Shown here one piece after another: positions 5,507 to 49,548 of a DNA stretch of 64,000 bases; the first letter of the stretch is position 1; each line of letters opens with the position of its first letter. Below the pieces are notes generated by a model. The model saw only the letters and a program-made list of their open reading frames with translations, ran no database searches and was not told the DNA's origin. Source of the stretch: a virus. A program made the translations under genes and the position numbers. The stretch spans positions 62,001-126,000 of the IMG/VR virus record IMGVR_UViG_3300017917_002466; one strand, written 5' to 3'.

Positions 5507-6476
5507 AAATAATATTGCTCTTGAAAGACAAATAAGACTAATATTAAGTAGTTTTAATAACGTTACTTATGAAGATAATTATTATCAATTTAGATGTAAT
5601 GTATGTGGCGATAGTAAAAAATCTAAATCTAAAAAAAGAGCTTATATATTAAAAAATAAGCAACCATATATGATGTATTGCCACAACTGTTTTTATAATA
5701 AGCCCGTTTTTATATGGATGAAAGAATTTTTTCCATCTTATTATAAAAGTTATATTAGCGAAATTTTAACAAATAAACAAAAGGCAAAACCTTTGCCAAA
5801 GATAGAGAATCCAAAGGTAAGAAAGAAGTACGAAGAAAAAGAACAGACTAAGTTTTTTATTCCAATACAGAAGGGAATTACACCACTTTTTGCGAAGGCA
5901 ATTAGAACTTGTATTGACAGAAAAATACCAGAAGAAGTTTGGAGTAAGTGGTTTGTTGCAATAGGTGGTAATTATAATAATCGACTGATAATACCATTCT
6001 TTGACAAATTCGGAAAAATATATTATTATCAAGGAAGAGCACTTTTTGACTATATACAACCAAAGTATCTCTCCCGCAAAGGAGATTTCAATAGCATCTA
6101 CAACTACTTCTTGGTTGACAAAGACAAGCCAGTTGTCATACTTGAAGGGCCAATTGATAGTATCTTCGTAGAGAATTCAATTGCACTAACAGGAGTCAAG
6201 ACCGAGGATAAGAAGCTATCGGAATTTCCACACAAGAGATACCTGATTGACTTTGATGCGACGACCGAGGAAACTAAAAAGAAGACTGTAGAGCTTCTTG
6301 GAAAAGGTGAGTATGTATTCTGTTGGAAGAAGTTTATGAAAGCATTCAATCTTCCAATGAAAGATAAGTGGGATATTAATGACGTTTGTATTCATTTGAA
6401 TAGAGGAAAGTTTGCTTATAGTGAGTTAGAACCTTTCTTTACCAATTCACTTTTTGATAAGGTATTTTTTATATGA
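5487..6476 (+). CDS. gp61: gp61-like DNA primase
   Basis: Lagging-strand primase, partner of the gp41 helicase. 330 aa (T4 gp61 is 342). The N-terminal zinc ribbon shows CNVCGDSK... and YCHNC (two CxxC pairs near residues 30-65). The Toprim core is visible as VVILEGPIDS near residue 210, with the acidic YLIDFDA downstream. The ATG at 5487 is chosen over a TTG 18 bases upstream because it opens with the conserved N-terminal region. The gene start lies within the 3' end of the inserted endonuclease gene. Confidence 0.87.
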   Translation: MKTFQIENNIALERQIRLILSSFNNVTYEDNYYQFRCNVCGDSKKSKSKKRAYILKNKQPYMMYCHNCFYNKPVFIWMKEFFPSYYKSYISEILTNKQKAKPLPKIENPKVRKKYEEKEQTKFFIPIQKGITPLFAKAIRTCIDRKIPEEVWSKWFVAIGGNYNNRLIIPFFDKFGKIYYYQGRALFDYIQPKYLSRKGDFNSIYNYFLVDKDKPVVILEGPIDSIFVENSIALTGVKTEDKKLSEFPHKRYLIDFDATTEETKKKTVELLGKGEYVFCWKKFMKAFNLPMKDKWDINDVCIHLNRGKFAYSELEPFFTNSLFDKVFFI

Positions 6477-25276: not shown

Positions 25277-25394
25277 CTGATGATCTTTGACAATTCGGGA
25301 ATTGATAAGCACTTTGTTGTGAAAAACACAACTAAAATGTAATTCTAAGCGACACCTGCTTTAAGTGGTGTGACAATATGAGAGAATATATTTT
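25277..25394 (+). other. non-coding stretch with hairpins before the main tRNA array
   Basis: No gene. A TTGACA at 25288 has no good -10. Two hairpins are visible: GTTGTG-AAAA-CACAAC and ACACC-...-GGTGT, enclosed by GAATT ... AATTC. It starts with the same CTTTGACAA string seen before R-elements at 41661 and 41978, but lacks the R-element loop. Confidence 0.4.
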
Positions 25395-25468
25395 GCCCCC
25401 AAAGCATTAAGGTGATGCACTTGGCTCTTAACCAAGAGAAGAAGGTTCAATACCTTTTGGGGGTACCA
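25395..25468 (+). tRNA. tRNA-Lys(CTT)
   Basis: Acceptor GCCCCCA/TGGGGGT, anticodon stem CTTGG/CCAAG with loop CTCTTAA. CCA encoded. Confidence 0.9.
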
Positions 25469-25476
25469 AATTTTTT

Positions 25477-25562
25477 GGCGCGGATGGTAAGTGGTTGAAA
25501 TCAAACGGCTGTAACCCGTTCGCCTCACGGCTATGTAGGTTAAAATCCTACCCGCGTCACCA
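25477..25562 (+). tRNA. tRNA-Tyr(GTA)
   Basis: Acceptor GGCGCGG/CCGCGTC, anticodon stem AACGG/CCGTT with loop CTGTAAC, long variable arm as expected for bacterial Tyr. CCA encoded. Confidence 0.92.
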
Positions 25563-26193: not shown

Positions 26194-26200
26194 AAATTTC

Positions 26201-26274
26201 GGGGGTTTCTTCTAGTGGAAAGAAAACTGTCTCTGAAGCAGATAACGGTGGTTCAATTCCATCAACCCTCGCCA
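26201..26274 (+). tRNA. tRNA-Gln(CTG)
   Basis: Acceptor GGGGGTT/AACCCTC, G73, loop CTCTGAA, T arm TGGTTCAATTCCA. CCA encoded. Confidence 0.83.
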
Positions 26275-26280
26275 AAAAGT

Positions 26281-26460
26281 TTTTAGAAGAAAGCTGGGAA
26301 ACAGAGGTTCAAATCCTCTACTGAAGTTGATTTATAGAAGTATGCTGAATTTACTGGCAGGTAAATATAAGCAGAAAATATAAATCCTTTACAAATCAAA
26401 GCCTGCCAGCCGAGATAAGTAAAGTTCAGTTCATCTAGTGGGAGAATACCTGGCGTATTA
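26281..26460 (+). other. tRNA fragments and a hairpin between tRNA-Gln and tRNA-His
   Basis: No complete gene. An isolated T arm (AGAGGTTCAAATCCTCT) lies near 26305-26321 and an isolated D-arm-like piece (CATCTAGTGGGAGAATACC) near 26433-26451. Between them CTGGCAGG pairs with CCTGCCAG across a 45-nt A-rich loop. These look like remains of deleted tRNA genes. Confidence 0.5.
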
Positions 26461-26461
26461 T

Positions 26462-26536
26462 GGTGGTATTGGTGTAGTAGAAGCATCTGATCCTGTGAAG
26501 ATCAAGGGTTCGGAGCATATCCGAAATATCACCCCA
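26462..26536 (+). tRNA. tRNA-His(GTG)
   Basis: Acceptor GTGGTAT/ATATCAC with an encoded extra G-1 facing C73, the His hallmark. Anticodon stem TGATC/GATCA with loop CTGTGAA. CCA encoded. Confidence 0.92.
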
Positions 26537-26544
26537 AAATTTAT

Positions 26545-26633
26545 TAGGAAGTAGGCCCGTAATTGGTAGCGGTCTTGTTCTGGAAACAAGTGGCAATATG
26601 CTCCTGGGAGTTCGAGTCTCCCCTTCCTAACCA
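26545..26633 (+). tRNA. tRNA-Ser(GGA), probable
   Basis: Acceptor TAGGAAG/CTTCCTA, long variable arm, T arm GGGAGTTCGAGTCTCCC. Strict pairing of CTTGT/ACAAG puts TGG at the anticodon with C33; shifting one base gives T33 and GGA, which fits the class II arm. CCA encoded. Confidence 0.7.
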
Positions 26634-26641
26634 AGAATTAT

Positions 26642-26716
26642 GCCGCCGTAGCCAAGTAGAAGGTGATGCCTCTGCAAAAGGTAATCTTTGGGGCGCAACT
26701 CCCCACGGTGGCTCCA
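26642..26716 (+). tRNA. tRNA-Cys(GCA)
   Basis: Acceptor GCCGCCG/CGGTGGC, anticodon stem TGCCT/AGGTA with loop CTGCAAA. CCA encoded. Confidence 0.9.
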
Positions 26717-26756
26717 AATTATTTTCACCAATCTGTGATTTTTTATCATCAAAAGA

Positions 26757-28109: not shown

Positions 28110-28185
28110 GCCGTTCAAGCAATTGAAGTCAATGCGCTTGCCTGAAGAGCAAGATAATCCGGGGCAGTACCGGGGGGCGGCACCA
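28110..28185 (+). tRNA. tRNA-Phe(GAA), second copy
   Basis: Acceptor GCCGTTC/GGGCGGC with two G-T pairs, anticodon stem CTTGC/GCAAG with loop CTGAAGA. CCA encoded. Confidence 0.85.
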
Positions 28186-28186
28186 C

Positions 28187-28221
28187 GGAAAATGCGGGGT
28201 CGAATCCCGTCACCACTACCA
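28187..28221 (+). pseudogene. 3' half of a tRNA
   Basis: T arm GCGGGGTCGAATCCCGT followed by CACCACTACCA, matching the 3' end of the tRNA-Glu at 27947-28020. No 5' half precedes it; a duplication remnant. Confidence 0.65.
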
Positions 28222-28242
28222 AATTACCGAAGGACATAATTT

Positions 28243-28912: not shown

Positions 28913-28929
28913 AGTTTCAAAAATTCTAA

Positions 28930-28985
28930 AGGATGAGTTCAGCAATCAAAAATTCTTATTAAAAAAGAAAACAAGTTCATCCTGT
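28930..28985 (+). ncRNA. R-element copy R1 (in the tRNA array)
   Basis: Closing stem AGGATGA (28930-28936) with TCATCCT (28977-28983), followed by GTG. Conserved loop block GTTCAGCAATCAAAA just inside the stem, then a short A-rich interior. No coding potential. Confidence 0.7.
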
Positions 28986-29256: not shown

Positions 29257-29564
29257 ATGCCAAAAGCCACAAAGGAAAATCAACCTTAACAGTTGTAGGT
29301 GAAACTGAAGATGGTAAGAAAGTTGTCAGAGGATTGTTTTTAATAAGCACTTCAATAACTGGATTACCTTTAGAAGATTGCTTAGAAATTTTGAAAAAGA
29401 ATAATCTTGTGGTAGATTGGATAGACTTTATAGAAGATGCTATCAAGTATAAATGGAAGATGGAAAGAACATTGATAAAGATAGAAACATCAGTTGAAGA
29501 AGTTTACGGAAAAGAATATTGTCAAGAAGTAATGAAAAGAATTAAAGGATGGGTTCAGCAATAA
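29257..29564 (+). pseudogene. small gene with an early frameshift
   Basis: AAAGGAG at 29242-29248 points to the ATG at 29257, whose frame stops after 10 codons (MPKATKENQP). The coding-like sequence GKSTLTVVGETEDGKKVVRG... continues in another frame to a stop at 29562, with no in-frame start except a poorly placed TTG at 29334. So the gene is broken early, or the sequence has an indel there. Its last codons contain the 5' part of R-element R2. Function unknown. Confidence 0.55.
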
Positions 29565-29665
29565 AAATCCATTACAAGGCGCGTGTCGGTGGTTCGATTC
29601 CATCCGCTCCCACATTACTGGAGTGTAGCTCAGTTGGTAGAGCAGCAAAAAAAAGTCCATCCTGA
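29546..29665 (+). ncRNA. R-element copy R2 enclosing a permuted tRNA-Val
   Basis: Closing stem AGGATGG (29546-29552) with CCATCCT (29657-29663); loop block GGTTCAGCAATAAAAA. The interior holds a tRNA in reversed half order: a 3' half (29571-29614: anticodon loop ATTACAA, T arm GGTGGTTCGATTCCATC, acceptor CGCTCC) and then a 5' half (29620-29646: GGAGTG acceptor, D arm GCTCAGTTGGTAGAGC). GGAGTG pairs with CGCTCC. Read circularly the body is tRNA-Val(TAC)-like. Confidence 0.7.
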
Positions 29666-29771: not shown

Positions 29772-29832
29772 AGACTGGTTCCAGCAAACCAAAACTATTT
29801 GCTTGTTAAGCAAACAAAGTAATCCAGTCTGA
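29772..29832 (+). ncRNA. R-element copy R8
   Basis: Closing stem AGACTGG (29772-29778) with CCAGTCT (29824-29830); loop block TTCCAGCAAACCAAAA (one extra C). The interior is a hairpin TTTGC-TTGTTAA-GCAAA, which has the 5-bp stem and 7-nt loop of an anticodon arm with GTT at the anticodon position. Confidence 0.65.
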
Positions 29833-41679: not shown

Positions 41680-41815
41680 AGAGTAGGTTCTGCAATCAAA
41701 ATAATACTTAAAGGAAGTCCCAATGTCATAGCCGGGGACACAAAATAATCGGTTGTGGTGGACTTTTATTAATTGAGAAAGTTAGTTCTAAAAGAAATAA
41801 TCTGACTACTCTGGG
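41680..41815 (+). ncRNA. R-element copy R0
   Basis: Closing stem AGAGTAG (41680-41686) with CTACTCT (41806-41812); loop block GTTCTGCAATCAAAA. The interior carries GTCCC...GGGAC and further A/U-rich hairpins. A CTTTGACAAA string precedes it. Non-coding. Confidence 0.7.
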
Positions 41816-41836: not shown

Positions 41837-41969
41837 AGGATGGGTTCGGCAAACCAAAATAGCCCGAAAGGGCATCAAGGTAGCCGTCAATAAAAGGCGG
41901 CGGAGAGGAAGTTAAACTTGCAAAGGCTTCCCTCTCTAAAATAAAAAAGAAACCTTTCTAACATCCTGT
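41837..41969 (+). ncRNA. R-element copy R3
   Basis: Closing stem AGGATG (41837-41842) with CATCCT (41962-41967), followed by GT. Loop block GGTTCGGCAAACCAAAA. Interior hairpins GCCC-GAAA-GGGC, GCCG...CGGC and GAGAGG...CCTCTC. Confidence 0.75.
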
Positions 41970-41996: not shown

Positions 41997-42134
41997 AGGA
42001 TGAATTCGGCAACCAAATTTGATGCGAAAGCATCACTATAACAGGTTATAAGCTGCGACACCGAAAGGTGACCAGATACTAACCAAGGTTTTTTGGAGAC
42101 TTTTCCCTAAATAAAAATCTTTCAAGCATCCTGT
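41997..42134 (+). ncRNA. R-element copy R4
   Basis: Closing stem AGGATG (41997-42002) with CATCCT (42127-42132), then GTG. Loop block ATTCGGCAACCAAAT. Interior hairpins GATGC-GAAA-GCATC and CACC-GAAA-GGTG. CTTTGACAAA precedes it. Confidence 0.75.
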
Positions 42135-42181: not shown

Positions 42182-42230
42182 AAGAAAGAGGGCAGAAAAT
42201 TTCGGTAAAATGATATATACATATTCGGGA

Positions 42231-42321
42231 AGGATAGATTCAGCAAACTAAAAGGAAAATAGCTCGCAAGAGCTTATTTGGTTCAAATCCAAAAACGTCG
42301 CAAGACGAAAAACTATCCTGT
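42231..42321 (+). ncRNA. R-element copy R5
   Basis: Closing stem AGGATAG (42231-42237) with CTATCCT (42313-42319), then GTG. Loop block ATTCAGCAAACTAAAA. The interior has AGCTC-GCAA-GAGCT, a T-arm-like TTTGGTTCAAATCCAAA and CGTC-GCAA-GACG. Confidence 0.75.
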
Positions 42322-42342
42322 GACCTACAAGATAATAAATGA

Positions 42343-42401
42343 AGGGTGAGTTCAGCAACTCAAAAACAAACAACTCATAATTGTTAAAAAGTTCACCCTG
42401 T
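42343..42401 (+). ncRNA. R-element copy R6
   Basis: Closing stem AGGGTGA (42343-42349) with TCACCCT (42393-42399), then GT. Loop block GTTCAGCAACTCAAAA. Short interior. Confidence 0.75.
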
Positions 42402-42435
42402 TTTTTCTACAGTTCGGATTGAAAGAAAGTTTTGA

Positions 42436-42486
42436 AGGTTGGATTCCGCAATTAAAATCCATAATTAGGAAAAAAGACCAACCTGT
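42436..42486 (+). ncRNA. R-element copy R7
   Basis: Closing stem AGGTTGG (42436-42442) with CCAACCT (42478-42484), then GT. Loop block ATTCCGCAATTAAAA. Shortest copy, 28 bases before the Ro-like start codon. Confidence 0.75.
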
Positions 42487-42513: not shown

Positions 42514-43986
42514 ATGGCTAAGACTCGCACGAACGAAGGCGCAATTCAGTACGACCACTCTCTCGACCACGCAGTTGAGTTCTTCTCAAAGGCCGGTTCA
42601 ATTTATTCCAAGAAGGCAAAGGGCAAGCGCCCATTCTACGGCAACGAGCAGTCCGCTCTTGAGCTTTTCAAGGCCGTCTGGTGCTCAGGTAACCACGAAA
42701 TGGCTATGAAGCTTATGTTCTGGCTTCGTGACTGCCGTGGTGGAGCAGGAAACCGTTCCGCTTTCCGTGATTGTTTGAAGTGGGTTACTGAGACTGACCC
42801 GCGCTGGGTTAAGGCCAACATTGGTCTTGTTCCTGAGCTTGGTCGTTGGGACGACCTTCGTGTTCTTAACGGAACTGATGCTGAGGCCGTTGCGACTAAG
42901 ATTTGGGCTGAGGCAGTTGCCAAGAAGGACGGTCTTGCCTGTAAGTGGGCTGACCGTTCAGACACCAACATTCTTCGTGAGCTTCGTAAGGCGAAGATTG
43001 TCAAGGACATTGGCGAATTCCGTCGTCTTCTTGCGGCTGGCCGTAAGAACATTGTTGAGCGTGCAATGTGTTCAGACCGTTGGAACGAGATTGAGTATCC
43101 TCACGTTCCTTCTGTTGCAATGAGCCGTTACACCAAGGCTTTCAACAAGCACGACGAAGCCCGCTTCTCCAAGTTCAAGGAGAAGGTTCAGAAGGGTGAG
43201 GCTAAGATCAATGCAAGCGTATTGTTCCCTCACGACCTTGTTCGTACCTTGAAGGCTGATGGAGACTGTGAGATTGCAGATGCACAGTTCAATGCAATGC
43301 CAAACTGGGTCGGTGATAGCAAGCTTCGTATCATCACTCTTTGTGACTCTTCGGGTTCAATGGGTTGTGATATTGGTGGAAGCGTACAGGCAATTGATGT
43401 TTCAACTTCATTGTCATTGTACTGCTCAGACCGTATTCCAAAGGATTCTCCGTTCCACCGTAAGTTCATCCAGTTTGAGTCTGAGTCCAAGTTGACTGAC
43501 TGGGCTGGTATGACTTTCTCCGAGGCTTATGGCTACGGTAAGAAGGTAACTTCTCGTCGTCGTGGATTCGGATATGGTCAGGGAATCTTTGATGGTGCTT
43601 GTGGTGGTACTCGTATTGACACTGCACTTGATATGTTGCTCAACCACGCCAAGATGTTCAAGGCTACGAATGAGCAGGTTCCGAATATGATTCTTATTAT
43701 CTCTGATATGCAGTTCCACGGCGTACCAGATGGAACCAACGGCAAGACTGTTGTTGAGCATTGCCTTGAGAAGTGGGAAAAGGCCGGATACACTCGTCCA
43801 AAGATTGTTTACTGGAACCTTTCTGGTTATGCCGGTTCACCAGCAACAGTCACTCACAAGGACGTTGGTATGGTTTCTGGATTCTCTCCGAGCATCCTTG
43901 AAGCCATTATGAAGGCCGAAGACTTCACTCCAATGGGTATTATGCTCAAGAAACTTGAGAAGTACAAGGTTGCTATCCCCCAGTAA
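42514..43986 (+). CDS. Ro60/TROVE-like (DUF2828) protein with a vWA domain
   Basis: 490 aa. The N-terminal two thirds are alpha-helical with the DUF2828/TROVE-type block LMFWLRDCRGGAGNRSAFRDCLKW ... LVPELGRWDDL, the region that forms the RNA-binding ring in Ro proteins. The C-terminal third is a von Willebrand A domain with MIDAS motif DSSGSMG near residue 278 and ISDMQF near residue 395. Ro proteins bind misfolded RNAs and Y RNAs, often with a nuclease. Directly preceded by six R-elements. Its GC content and codon use are clearly higher than in neighbouring genes. AGGAGG upstream; strong terminator downstream. Confidence 0.82.
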   Translation: MAKTRTNEGAIQYDHSLDHAVEFFSKAGSIYSKKAKGKRPFYGNEQSALELFKAVWCSGNHEMAMKLMFWLRDCRGGAGNRSAFRDCLKWVTETDPRWVKANIGLVPELGRWDDLRVLNGTDAEAVATKIWAEAVAKKDGLACKWADRSDTNILRELRKAKIVKDIGEFRRLLAAGRKNIVERAMCSDRWNEIEYPHVPSVAMSRYTKAFNKHDEARFSKFKEKVQKGEAKINASVLFPHDLVRTLKADGDCEIADAQFNAMPNWVGDSKLRIITLCDSSGSMGCDIGGSVQAIDVSTSLSLYCSDRIPKDSPFHRKFIQFESESKLTDWAGMTFSEAYGYGKKVTSRRRGFGYGQGIFDGACGGTRIDTALDMLLNHAKMFKATNEQVPNMILIISDMQFHGVPDGTNGKTVVEHCLEKWEKAGYTRPKIVYWNLSGYAGSPATVTHKDVGMVSGFSPSILEAIMKAEDFTPMGIMLKKLEKYKVAIPQ

Positions 43987-46205: not shown

Positions 46206-46280
46206 ACGCCTGTAGCAGGGATCGAACCCGCGCAGACAGAAATTTAGAGTTTCCCGCTCTAGCCGCTGAGCTATACAGGC
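46206..46280 (-). tRNA. amber suppressor-type tRNA (anticodon CTA)
   Basis: Minus strand. Acceptor GCCTGTA/TACAGGC, D arm GCTC/GAGC, anticodon stem GGAAA/TTTCT with loop CTCTAAA, so anticodon CTA at positions 34-36, reading UAG. T arm GCGGGTTCGATCCCTGC, G73; no CCA encoded. All arms are intact. The amino acid cannot be read from sequence; G73 would allow Gln. It lies apart from the main array, at the 3' end of the leftward operon. Confidence 0.87.
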
Positions 46281-48221: not shown

Positions 48222-49535
48222 TTAATCCCTATCATAACCATCACCAGCCTTCATATTCAGAATTGGTATAATTCTGTTTATGATTTTAGCTGTTGGCTCA
48301 ATAGCTTTTTCAATTATTTCTGGATTTTTATAAGCTAAAGGAGACTCGTCTTTTGGTTTTTGTGATGCGTAAACTCCTTTCATAGCTTCGTTAGCCATTT
48401 CATCAGTAATAGTTTTTTTAGCTTGCGATCTTGACATTAGTCTTCCAAATCCGTGCGGAGCCGAGCAATTCCATTCAGTATTTGATTTCCCCTCACAAAT
48501 TAAAGAACCAAAAGAAGGACTTCCGGGAATAATCATTCTCTCACCCTTATAAGAACGGATAGAACCCTTACGGATAATGAAGTCACGGAAGTCAATAAAG
48601 TTATGGACAGTCTCAATCCTGTCAATCTCGTTGACTCCAAGAATCTTCAAAATGGCTGAGGCGATATAAGCCCTATTGACTTCCGCATACTTCTGTGCGA
48701 AAATCATATCATACAAGTATCCGTTTGCATTCTCACCCTCTAGGTACTGAAGCTCGTCGGAAACAATAGCATCCAAACCAAGCTCAGCACGAGCCTTCTT
48801 GATTTGAGCCTTGATTTCCATACCAGTATAGGTCTTACGGATTTCATCAATACGAGACTTCAACAAATCCTGCTTATCCTTACGGACAACAGAAGAAGCC
48901 ATATTCTGCCAATAGTCACATACACACTTTCCAAAGTTACGAGAACCAGTGTGAATTACAATCCAATAGTTACCATTGTCGTCCTTTCCAATTTCAATGA
49001 AGTGGTTACCCCCACCAAGCGAACCAAGTGACTTAACAGCACGACCAAGGTTAGCACCAATGTCATTGCACTTCTGAACGAACCAACGATAGTCATATCC
49101 ATCAAAGTACGAGTTGGTTCCAAACTTCTGATTGTAGGCCAATGAGAAGTTATGAGCCAATCCACGAACTTCGCGGTATGGGAAATCCCTTTCCATATTG
49201 AGAACGGACTTATCGTGAGTCTCAATACCAAAAGGAACTGACTGACGAATCTTGTGGTCAAGCTGTTCCAAAGCGATAGGAAGGTTCTGGCCGATGTTGA
49301 TTGCCAACATTCCACAGCCAATATCCACAGAAACAACGGCGGGAATTATCTTCTCTGACATTTCCATTGTAAATCCAATACAGCTAGACTTACCAGAATG
49401 ACAGTCAGGCATAATAGCAATAGGATTAGTAAAAGCAGGATGATTAGACATTTGAGTAATTTGAGCAACACAAGACTCCTCAACATTGTCAATCATTACT
49501 TTAGCCTTCGTATACTTACCAACAATCTCAAACAT
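48222..49535 (-). CDS. rtcB: RtcB-like RNA ligase
   Basis: 437 aa from an ATG 6 bases after GGAGG. RtcB joins 2',3'-cyclic phosphate or 3'-phosphate ends to 5'-OH ends, in tRNA splicing and RNA repair, using GTP and Mn. Signature motifs: IMPDCHSGK near residue 42, VDIGCGM near 70, SLGGGNHFIEI near 165 and a C-terminal CSAPHGFGRLMSR containing the guanylylated-His region. In Enterobacteria rtcB shares an operon with rsr (Ro) and Y RNAs; this phage also encodes a Ro-like protein, 5 kb away. Confidence 0.93.
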   Translation of the reverse strand: MFEIVGKYTKAKVMIDNVEESCVAQITQMSNHPAFTNPIAIMPDCHSGKSSCIGFTMEMSEKIIPAVVSVDIGCGMLAINIGQNLPIALEQLDHKIRQSVPFGIETHDKSVLNMERDFPYREVRGLAHNFSLAYNQKFGTNSYFDGYDYRWFVQKCNDIGANLGRAVKSLGSLGGGNHFIEIGKDDNGNYWIVIHTGSRNFGKCVCDYWQNMASSVVRKDKQDLLKSRIDEIRKTYTGMEIKAQIKKARAELGLDAIVSDELQYLEGENANGYLYDMIFAQKYAEVNRAYIASAILKILGVNEIDRIETVHNFIDFRDFIIRKGSIRSYKGERMIIPGSPSFGSLICEGKSNTEWNCSAPHGFGRLMSRSQAKKTITDEMANEAMKGVYASQKPKDESPLAYKNPEIIEKAIEPTAKIINRIIPILNMKAGDGYDRD

Positions 49536-49548
49536 TACCATCCTCCAA

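Follow-up and report, generated by a model that had tools for sequence, protein, structure and literature searches.

Permuted tRNA genes are known from red algae, prasinophytes and Thermofilum. Another kind of tRNA-shaped RNA occurs in bacteria, where the Y RNA YrlA and its tRNA mimicry are already known (PMC8394870) and YrlA is modified by DusA and TruB (PMC7790460, PMC8394870). In phages, Y RNAs have been described for mycobacteriophages (Chen 2014, as cited in PMC12282133), a Ro60-related protein for a Vibrio jumbo phage (PMC7765460) and ROT/TROVE proteins for jumbo phages (PMC7824862). Phage tRNAs that resist anticodon nucleases are known as well (PMC11455837).

Against this background we analysed an element, R2, in a viral DNA stretch of 64,000 nucleotides (the window). 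The initial annotation had read R2 as a circularly permuted tRNA-Val whose outer ends might be joined by the phage RtcB ligase, with a tRNA mimic or a recombination scar as fallbacks. Its remark that none had been described in a phage is outdated if applied to mimics, given the mycobacteriophage Y RNAs. R2 is very probably a phage Y RNA with a tRNA-shaped core that stays unspliced and whose end stem would be held by the Ro60-fold protein of the phage.

Anatomy of R2

From 5′ to 3′, R2 consists of the outer stem strand, TT, CAGCAA, an A-rich stretch, CC-ATTACAA-GG, CGCGTGTC and the T arm, followed by the acceptor hairpin, TA, the D arm, a second A-rich stretch, the 3′ strand of the outer stem and a G (Table 1). 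The permuted order, with the 3′ half before the 5′ half, can be read directly in the sequence, and the covariance model described below matches the element. The outer stem of 8 bp is real and encloses T arm, acceptor hairpin and D arm in this order. The acceptor strands pair at six of seven positions, one of the six being a G-T pair, and the anticodon stem lacks most of its 5′ strand. In all these points, and in the presence of an RtcB gene, the initial annotation was correct.

Table 1. Coordinates of R2, its parts, the other candidate elements and the two protein genes in the window
Feature	Position	Strand	Basis or remark
Element B (R2), candidate Y-type RNA with permuted tRNA-mimic core	29546–29664	+	sequence, stem caller, model R1, sub-cut-off YrlA match
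R2 outer stem, 5′ strand AGGATGGG, putative Ro-binding	29546–29553	+	pairs with 29656–29663
R2 outer stem, 3′ strand TCCATCCT (29656–29663), then conserved G	29656–29664	+	
R2 conserved CAGCAA core	29556–29561	+	recurs in other elements; motif defined from the present set
R2 loop ATTACAA, context CC-ATTACAA-GG	29571–29577	+	
R2 T-arm mimic GGTGG-TTCGATT-CCATC	29588–29604	+	
R2 acceptor hairpin (3′ strand, linker, 5′ strand)	29605–29625	+	
R2 acceptor 3′ strand CGCTCCC	29605–29611	+	
R2 acceptor linker ACATTAC	29612–29618	+	
R2 acceptor 5′ strand TGGAGTG	29619–29625	+	
R2 D-arm mimic GCTC-AGTTGGTA-GAGC	29628–29643	+	
Element A (R1 of the initial annotation), short candidate Y-type RNA	28930–28984	+	model R1 58.2 bits, E 1.5e-11, at 28928–28985
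Element C, short candidate Y-type RNA	29772–29831 (= L083 2345–2404)	+	relaxed caller; model R1 weak: 16.3 bits, E 0.16, at 29774–29828
Element D, long Y-type candidate, different interior fold	41680–41813	+	stem and variant core only
Element E, long Y-type candidate, fold z −4.35	41837–41968	+	stem and variant core only
Element F, long Y-type candidate, fold z −3.64	41997–42133	+	stem and variant core only
Element G, candidate Y-type RNA, T-arm mimic TTTGG-TTCAAAT-CCAAA	42231–42320	+	model R1 36.5 bits, E 2.3e-6, at 42229–42321
Element H, short candidate Y-type RNA	42343–42400	+	model R1 43.2 bits, at 42341–42401
Element I, short candidate Y-type RNA, 28 nt upstream of the Ro-like start codon	42436–42485	+	model R1 43.5 bits, at 42434–42486
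Predicted Ro60-fold protein, 490 aa, DUF2828 + DUF7788	42514–43986	+	Pfam, alignment, predicted structure
RtcB RNA ligase	48222–49541	−	PF01139, E 7.1e-59

ARAGORN makes no tRNA call at R2 and 36 in the window, 35 of which form an array at 25.4–33.7 kb, with one more at 46.2 kb; at the gathering threshold, Rfam likewise yields only tRNAs in the window. The folding energy of R2 is no better than that of shuffled sequences (z −0.96), though the predicted fold contains the parts described. Nor is its acceptor pairing unusual alone, as six of seven pairs also occur at two of the 34 junctions between consecutive ordinary tRNAs in the window. Nucleotide searches with the R2 region led to places resembling tRNA genes, many of them unannotated.

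The best non-tRNA match of Rfam at R2 is YrlA (RF02553), with 33.8 bits at 29581–29646 and, at permissive settings, an E value of 2e-4 over 8.5 kb or 4.7e-6 over 201 bases. The alignment runs through T arm, acceptor hairpin and D arm as they follow one another in R2 and stays below the YrlA gathering score of 69 bits. Among 30 other phage records, 21 gave YrlA matches below the cut-off and none a match above it; sub-cut-off matches were also obtained in 11 of 14 well-known genomes searched as a control. As such weak matches are unspecific, our argument does not rest on them. The permissive scan revealed no self-splicing or ribozyme family at R1–R3 of the initial annotation or at elements D–I. 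Three matches were discarded as chance-level: at R2, one to part of a tmRNA (E 0.0012) and one to an element from a plant virus (E 0.75), and at element A, one to a class I RNA of Dictyostelium (E 0.4).

Three observations concern the surroundings. An open frame of 76 aa (29334–29564) terminates within the 5′ strand of R2, its stop codon overlapping CAGCAATAA. The 3′ half of a tRNA (28190–28224; T arm and CACTACCA end) follows a weak tRNA match at 28110–28182 and has no 5′ half; in contrast to R2, it is a true tRNA fragment. On the minus strand, 46207–46280 encodes a tRNA with a CTA anticodon, called tRNA-Pyl by ARAGORN and tRNA by Rfam (55.8 bits), possibly an amber suppressor.

An RNA stem family and its Ro60-fold neighbour

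R2 is one of nine candidate elements in the window whose ends pair into a stem common to its paralogues, as expected of Y RNAs. Scanning IMG/VR for the motif returned 45 loci, 29 of which have an exactly complementary stem and a G after the motif, and 66 distinct elements were called in the window and the loci collected at that stage. The covariance model R1 was built from 29 aligned non-redundant short elements, window sequences excluded. Since the six outermost stem pairs were required during selection, their pairing is no evidence. The seventh pair (columns 9–66) was outside the selection criteria; it is kept in 28 of the 29 elements, and 15 show two-sided changes.

Six of the nine window elements are recovered by this model at E ≤ 1, five of these at E ≤ 1e-5; D, E and F were missed in the window search. 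R2 is found at 29544–29665 with 33.8 bits and E 1e-5. A search of the whole record of 253,664 bases recovered R2 only as a partial match (24 bits, E 0.009) and, weakly, one more site at positions 184432–184469 of the record (E 0.24). The R2 type of stem also encloses elements without any tRNA body. The interiors of E and F are stable and contain GAAA-capped hairpins that are not tRNA-like. At least seven further window sites were marked by a relaxed caller: 18317, 25096, 37678 and 62605 on the plus strand, and 6188, 17066 and 25981 in minus-strand numbering. We take them all for chance, including 17066 and 25096, which pass the strict filter and remain in the element-class counts.

Six of the nine elements, D–I, lie directly upstream of the 490-aa Ro-like gene, and R2 is found 12.85 kb away from it. 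A promoter scan around D–I returned four sites with 2.4 expected and is not used as support. The protein matches Pfam DUF2828 (E 1.6e-30), and relatives are present in 665 of 50,697 phage records, some annotated by their depositors as 'Ro-like' or 'Ro sixty-related'. The TROVE model of Pfam (PF05731) has no match anywhere in the phage's own genome. A profile of 17 sequences detected four Ro60/TROVE chains among PDB sequences, weakly (E 0.11–1.3), with the unrelated ribosomal protein S21 level with the best of them (E 0.11).

The predicted structure is more informative. AlphaFold2, supplied with an alignment of 55 sequences (the window protein and 54 relatives), produced a model with a pLDDT of 90.3; a poor single-sequence model (pLDDT 41) was left unused. 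All seven Foldseek matches at E ≤ 0.001 are Ro60/Rsr proteins. In VIA-align, which re-aligns Foldseek's own candidates, the ten best rows are all Ro60/TROVE proteins, the Ro60 of Thermus phage phiLo among them, with Z scores from 20.4 (rmsd 3.9, 417 residues) down to 13.0, followed by vWA-only proteins with Z ≤ 10.7. The MIDAS residues of the vWA domain (D278, S280, S282, T366, D398) are invariant in the 55 sequences. According to the predicted model, the window DUF2828 protein has the Ro60 ring and vWA fold.

Elements of this family accompany DUF2828 genes in other viruses. Loci in IMG/VR were fetched by the DUF2828 protein alone; at least 599 stretches matched, 586 encode a relative, and the best 80 were kept. 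In these, the strict caller detected 58 elements in 39 loci on the strand of the gene and one on the opposite strand; with 30 permuted core motifs as a control, the average on the gene's strand was 1.63 elements (maximum 4). Of the 58 elements, 31 are upstream of the gene, 26 downstream and one inside, and 42 lie within 300 nt. Sixteen published phages gave 33 elements in 10 loci and one antisense element (permuted core motifs: mean 0.8, maximum 3). No element was called by the strict caller in six of the 16 published and 41 of the 80 IMG/VR loci.

Model R1 matched 23 of 30 records at E ≤ 0.1, including 10 of the 16 published phages; one published phage and many of the other 14 records had themselves supplied elements to the model. 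At E ≤ 0.05, it matched 14 of 16 further records. Among the 45 contigs selected by motif, several of them near-identical, DUF2828 is encoded in 19 of 29 with the stem versus none of 16 without it (Fisher p 1.4e-5). The ten stem-positive contigs without a DUF2828 match are 5.6–43 kb long and may be fragments. A Ro60-family protein is encoded alongside R2 in the same genome, with six siblings at the same locus, and comparison supports the RNA family and its tie to the Ro60-fold protein. The signature of the family is simple (outer stem, CAGCAA, 3′ G), and roughly half of the DUF2828 genes analysed have it next to them.

Recurrence of the permuted core

Among 48 long non-redundant elements, 22 including R2 contain the permuted T-acceptor-D order, nine have a T arm only and 17 have neither, two of the latter being the chance places 17066 and 25096. 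Shuffles gave 0.07 cases of the permuted order (maximum 1 in 100 shuffles). Modules picked by T arm and D motif alone, acceptor pairing not being a criterion, also number 22, in 267 distinct called elements. Their acceptor strands pair at 6.59 of 7 positions on average and at six or more in 20 of the 22; after swapping of partners the value is 3.28 (maximum 4.23 in 2000 swaps).

In Klebsiella phage KP13-26 and Mycobacterium phage MiniLon, no more than 300 nt separate permuted cores from the Ro-like gene. Related phages had been proposed as a check on conservation of the permuted order, and a near relative (G015), whose Ro-like protein is 56% identical, indeed has a permuted core in its tRNA array (L229, 1232–1348). 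In another relative (G016, 57%), the Ro-like gene is preceded by four elements, all of which lack the full permuted core. Two sub-types can be distinguished: cores open in the anticodon stem, such as YrlA and R2, and cores with a complete anticodon arm, represented by L037 7870–7987, L027, L133 and KP13-26 5815–5934. In some members the acceptor linker contains CCA.

Could the module be a chance scar, composed of the 3′ half of one tRNA and the 5′ half of the next within a repeat? The R2 core (29571–29646) aligns in one piece to places in Caulobacter phage CcrColossus and others where a tRNA-Val is followed by the next tRNA; among the matches listed, such one-piece rows have 77–81% identity over 55–60% of the query, and some are unannotated. 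A tRNA fragment, 28190–28224, does exist in the array. The one-piece alignments suggest that the permuted module may well have arisen from a tandem tRNA junction. Against a scar, however, stem, core motif and permuted module recur jointly in many other phages, and the acceptor strands fit their own partners far better than swapped ones. We therefore consider this origin of R2 by chance very improbable.

In a permuted tRNA-Val, by comparison, the stem would align the ends, a nuclease and RtcB would join them, and RNase P and 3′ processing would free the acceptor. The inverted halves, the complementarity of their acceptor strands and the RtcB gene are what such a tRNA would require, but RtcB also fits the rsr-yrlBA-rtcBA operons that exist in bacteria (PMC7790460), and the same stem surrounds elements that lack a tRNA body and is found beside Ro-like genes. 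When the R2 halves were joined in silico, ARAGORN called a tRNA in 23 of 713 joins and Val(TAC) in four, and joining restored no intact anticodon arm. Inspection of the predicted fold revealed no bulge-helix-bulge at the outer ends of R2.

Siblings retaining the whole anticodon arm (L037 7870–7987, KP13-26 5815–5934) would on joining give a complete tRNA, and some linkers hold CCA. Joins were called tRNA in 220 of 648 and 400 of 805 cases for these two, in 165 of 837, 253 of 891 and 583 of 1054 for open-stem siblings and in 411 of 609 for the near relative, ARAGORN being permissive when a tRNA body is present. With these counts and this permissiveness, splicing into a permuted tRNA is highly unlikely for R2 and is rejected less firmly for the complete-arm siblings. 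The proposed joining of the outer ends by RtcB is not supported at R2; the first fallback, a tRNA mimic, proved right in view of the stem family beside Ro60-fold genes and the recurring permuted cores; the scar did not. Comparison of sequences supports the assignment of R2 to the Y RNAs, and the apparent oddity becomes one member of a seemingly widespread phage RNA family.

Anticodon-arm mimics, possible function and known Y RNAs

Short members of the family present another part of the tRNA. Hairpins of at least 5 pairs with a 7-nt loop are formed by 38 of 73 short elements (shuffles 5.6, maximum 11); loops of 4–6, 8, 10 and 11 nt are found in 10–14 elements and loops of 9 nt in 20. Of the 38, 27 have U at position 33. 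A second comparison used the tRNA anticodon loops that ARAGORN calls in these phages, possibly with a few false calls. Of 106 short elements, 26 have a hairpin of at least 4 pairs with a 7-nt loop that exactly matches one of these reference loops (shuffles 0.40, maximum 4), and 18 have one at 5 pairs or more (shuffles 0.11, maximum 1). The Lys-UUU loop is the commonest among them. In the window phage, loops of this type are of the Asn type in element C (TTTGC-TTGTTAA-GCAAA) and CAU in element H (AACAA-CTCATAA-TTGTT). The hairpin of element A (TTCTT-ATTAAAA-AAGAA) has a loop absent from the reference set, and element I has no anticodon-loop hairpin by the same comparison. Together with the permuted cores, these tRNA-like and anticodon-like modules are supported by comparison.

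We propose that the ends of R2 form a stem with internal CAGCAA that would be bound by the phage's own Ro60-fold protein, as adjacency suggests. The interior module of T arm, acceptor hairpin and D arm would open at the anticodon stem like that of YrlA, and the RNA would stay unspliced, its permuted order resulting from a tRNA elbow being hung by the anticodon stem on the Ro stem. The modules would point away from the protein and bind something that binds tRNA, and sibling elements would present other modules, many of them anticodon arms. Ro-Y particles might then be decoys of tRNA, or docking sites for tRNA-handling proteins, during infection, above all for host anticodon nucleases. We tentatively regard this decoy or docking action, beside the phage tRNA array and RtcB, as the most likely one.

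Next in order, and somewhat less likely, is a tether by which PNPase or another nuclease is brought to RNA held by Ro, by analogy with Deinococcus. More generally, R2 might be a Y RNA with another task, either tethering PNPase or another nuclease (RYPER-like) or gating the Ro ring, its tRNA shape being only a stable handle or a substrate of modification enzymes. The known role in Deinococcus and the DusA/TruB modification of YrlA (PMC7790460, PMC8394870) are in line with this, but would not alone explain the canonical anticodon loops of many short members. In PMC7790460, moreover, the RecA-dependent anticodon nuclease is reported to leave YrlA uncut; its competitive inhibition is named there as one possibility, beside a role in tRNA decay. 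A task of this other kind has a fair, though less than even, chance.

In Listeria phage cka15, the Ro-like protein CKA15_055 (OR088597.1, 23695–25215, minus strand) was detected in purified mature particles with 57.1% sequence coverage (PMC12282133), so that packaging of a Ro-Y particle is possible. Among the annotated regions of this phage, CKA15_059–061 (26,236–26,727) is the most transcribed; the same source discusses it as possible sRNAs or Y RNAs. We dropped it as a sign of Y RNA expression and make no such claim, because L242 3196–3747 (minus strand; 26195–26746 of the record) matches ROOL RNA (RF03087; 90.1 bits, E 2.3e-18, cut-off 99.1) and the Y-type elements of cka15 lie elsewhere, at 25288–25553. 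It is conceivable, if doubtful, that the window phage produces a whole collection of tRNA decoys held by its Ro60-like protein, comprising permuted cores as well as single anticodon arms of particular tRNAs, and that host anticodon nucleases are trapped by them; as the cka15 particles suggest, the Ro-Y particles might even enter the cell with the virion. Through the anticodon-arm mimics, the role of the phage Ro60 particle becomes directly testable in phages of the laboratory hosts E. coli K-12 and M. smegmatis.

Phage Y RNAs themselves have been reported; new are the nine candidate elements in one phage, the CAGCAA stem signature and the short anticodon-arm members. Our literature search, within a mostly open-access collection, found no paper on the stem signature, multi-copy sets or anticodon-arm members.

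Compared with known systems, the window protein shares the ring and vWA fold of Ro60/Rsr (TROVE) proteins such as 1YVP, 2NVO and phiLo 9L5Y over most of its predicted chain, whereas identity is only about 12% and its Pfam class is DUF2828/DUF7788 instead of TROVE. Permuted tRNA genes have the 3′ half before the 5′ half, as does R2; joining of R2 gives no complete anticodon arm, however, and its flanks belong to an RNA family that goes with a Ro-like gene. Among mycobacteriophages, for whose Y RNAs PMC12282133 cites Chen 2014, MiniLon has three stem-family elements right after its 'Ro-like RNA binding protein', whereas the window phage has nine candidates. The closest counterpart is YrlA of Salmonella and other bacteria, in which T arm, acceptor hairpin and D arm are likewise permuted and open at the anticodon stem into a terminal stem, with a Ro60-family partner and RtcB in the same genome, as in the phage. 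In contrast to YrlA, the phage RNAs occur in several copies per genome, and some members have a complete anticodon arm or an anticodon arm alone.
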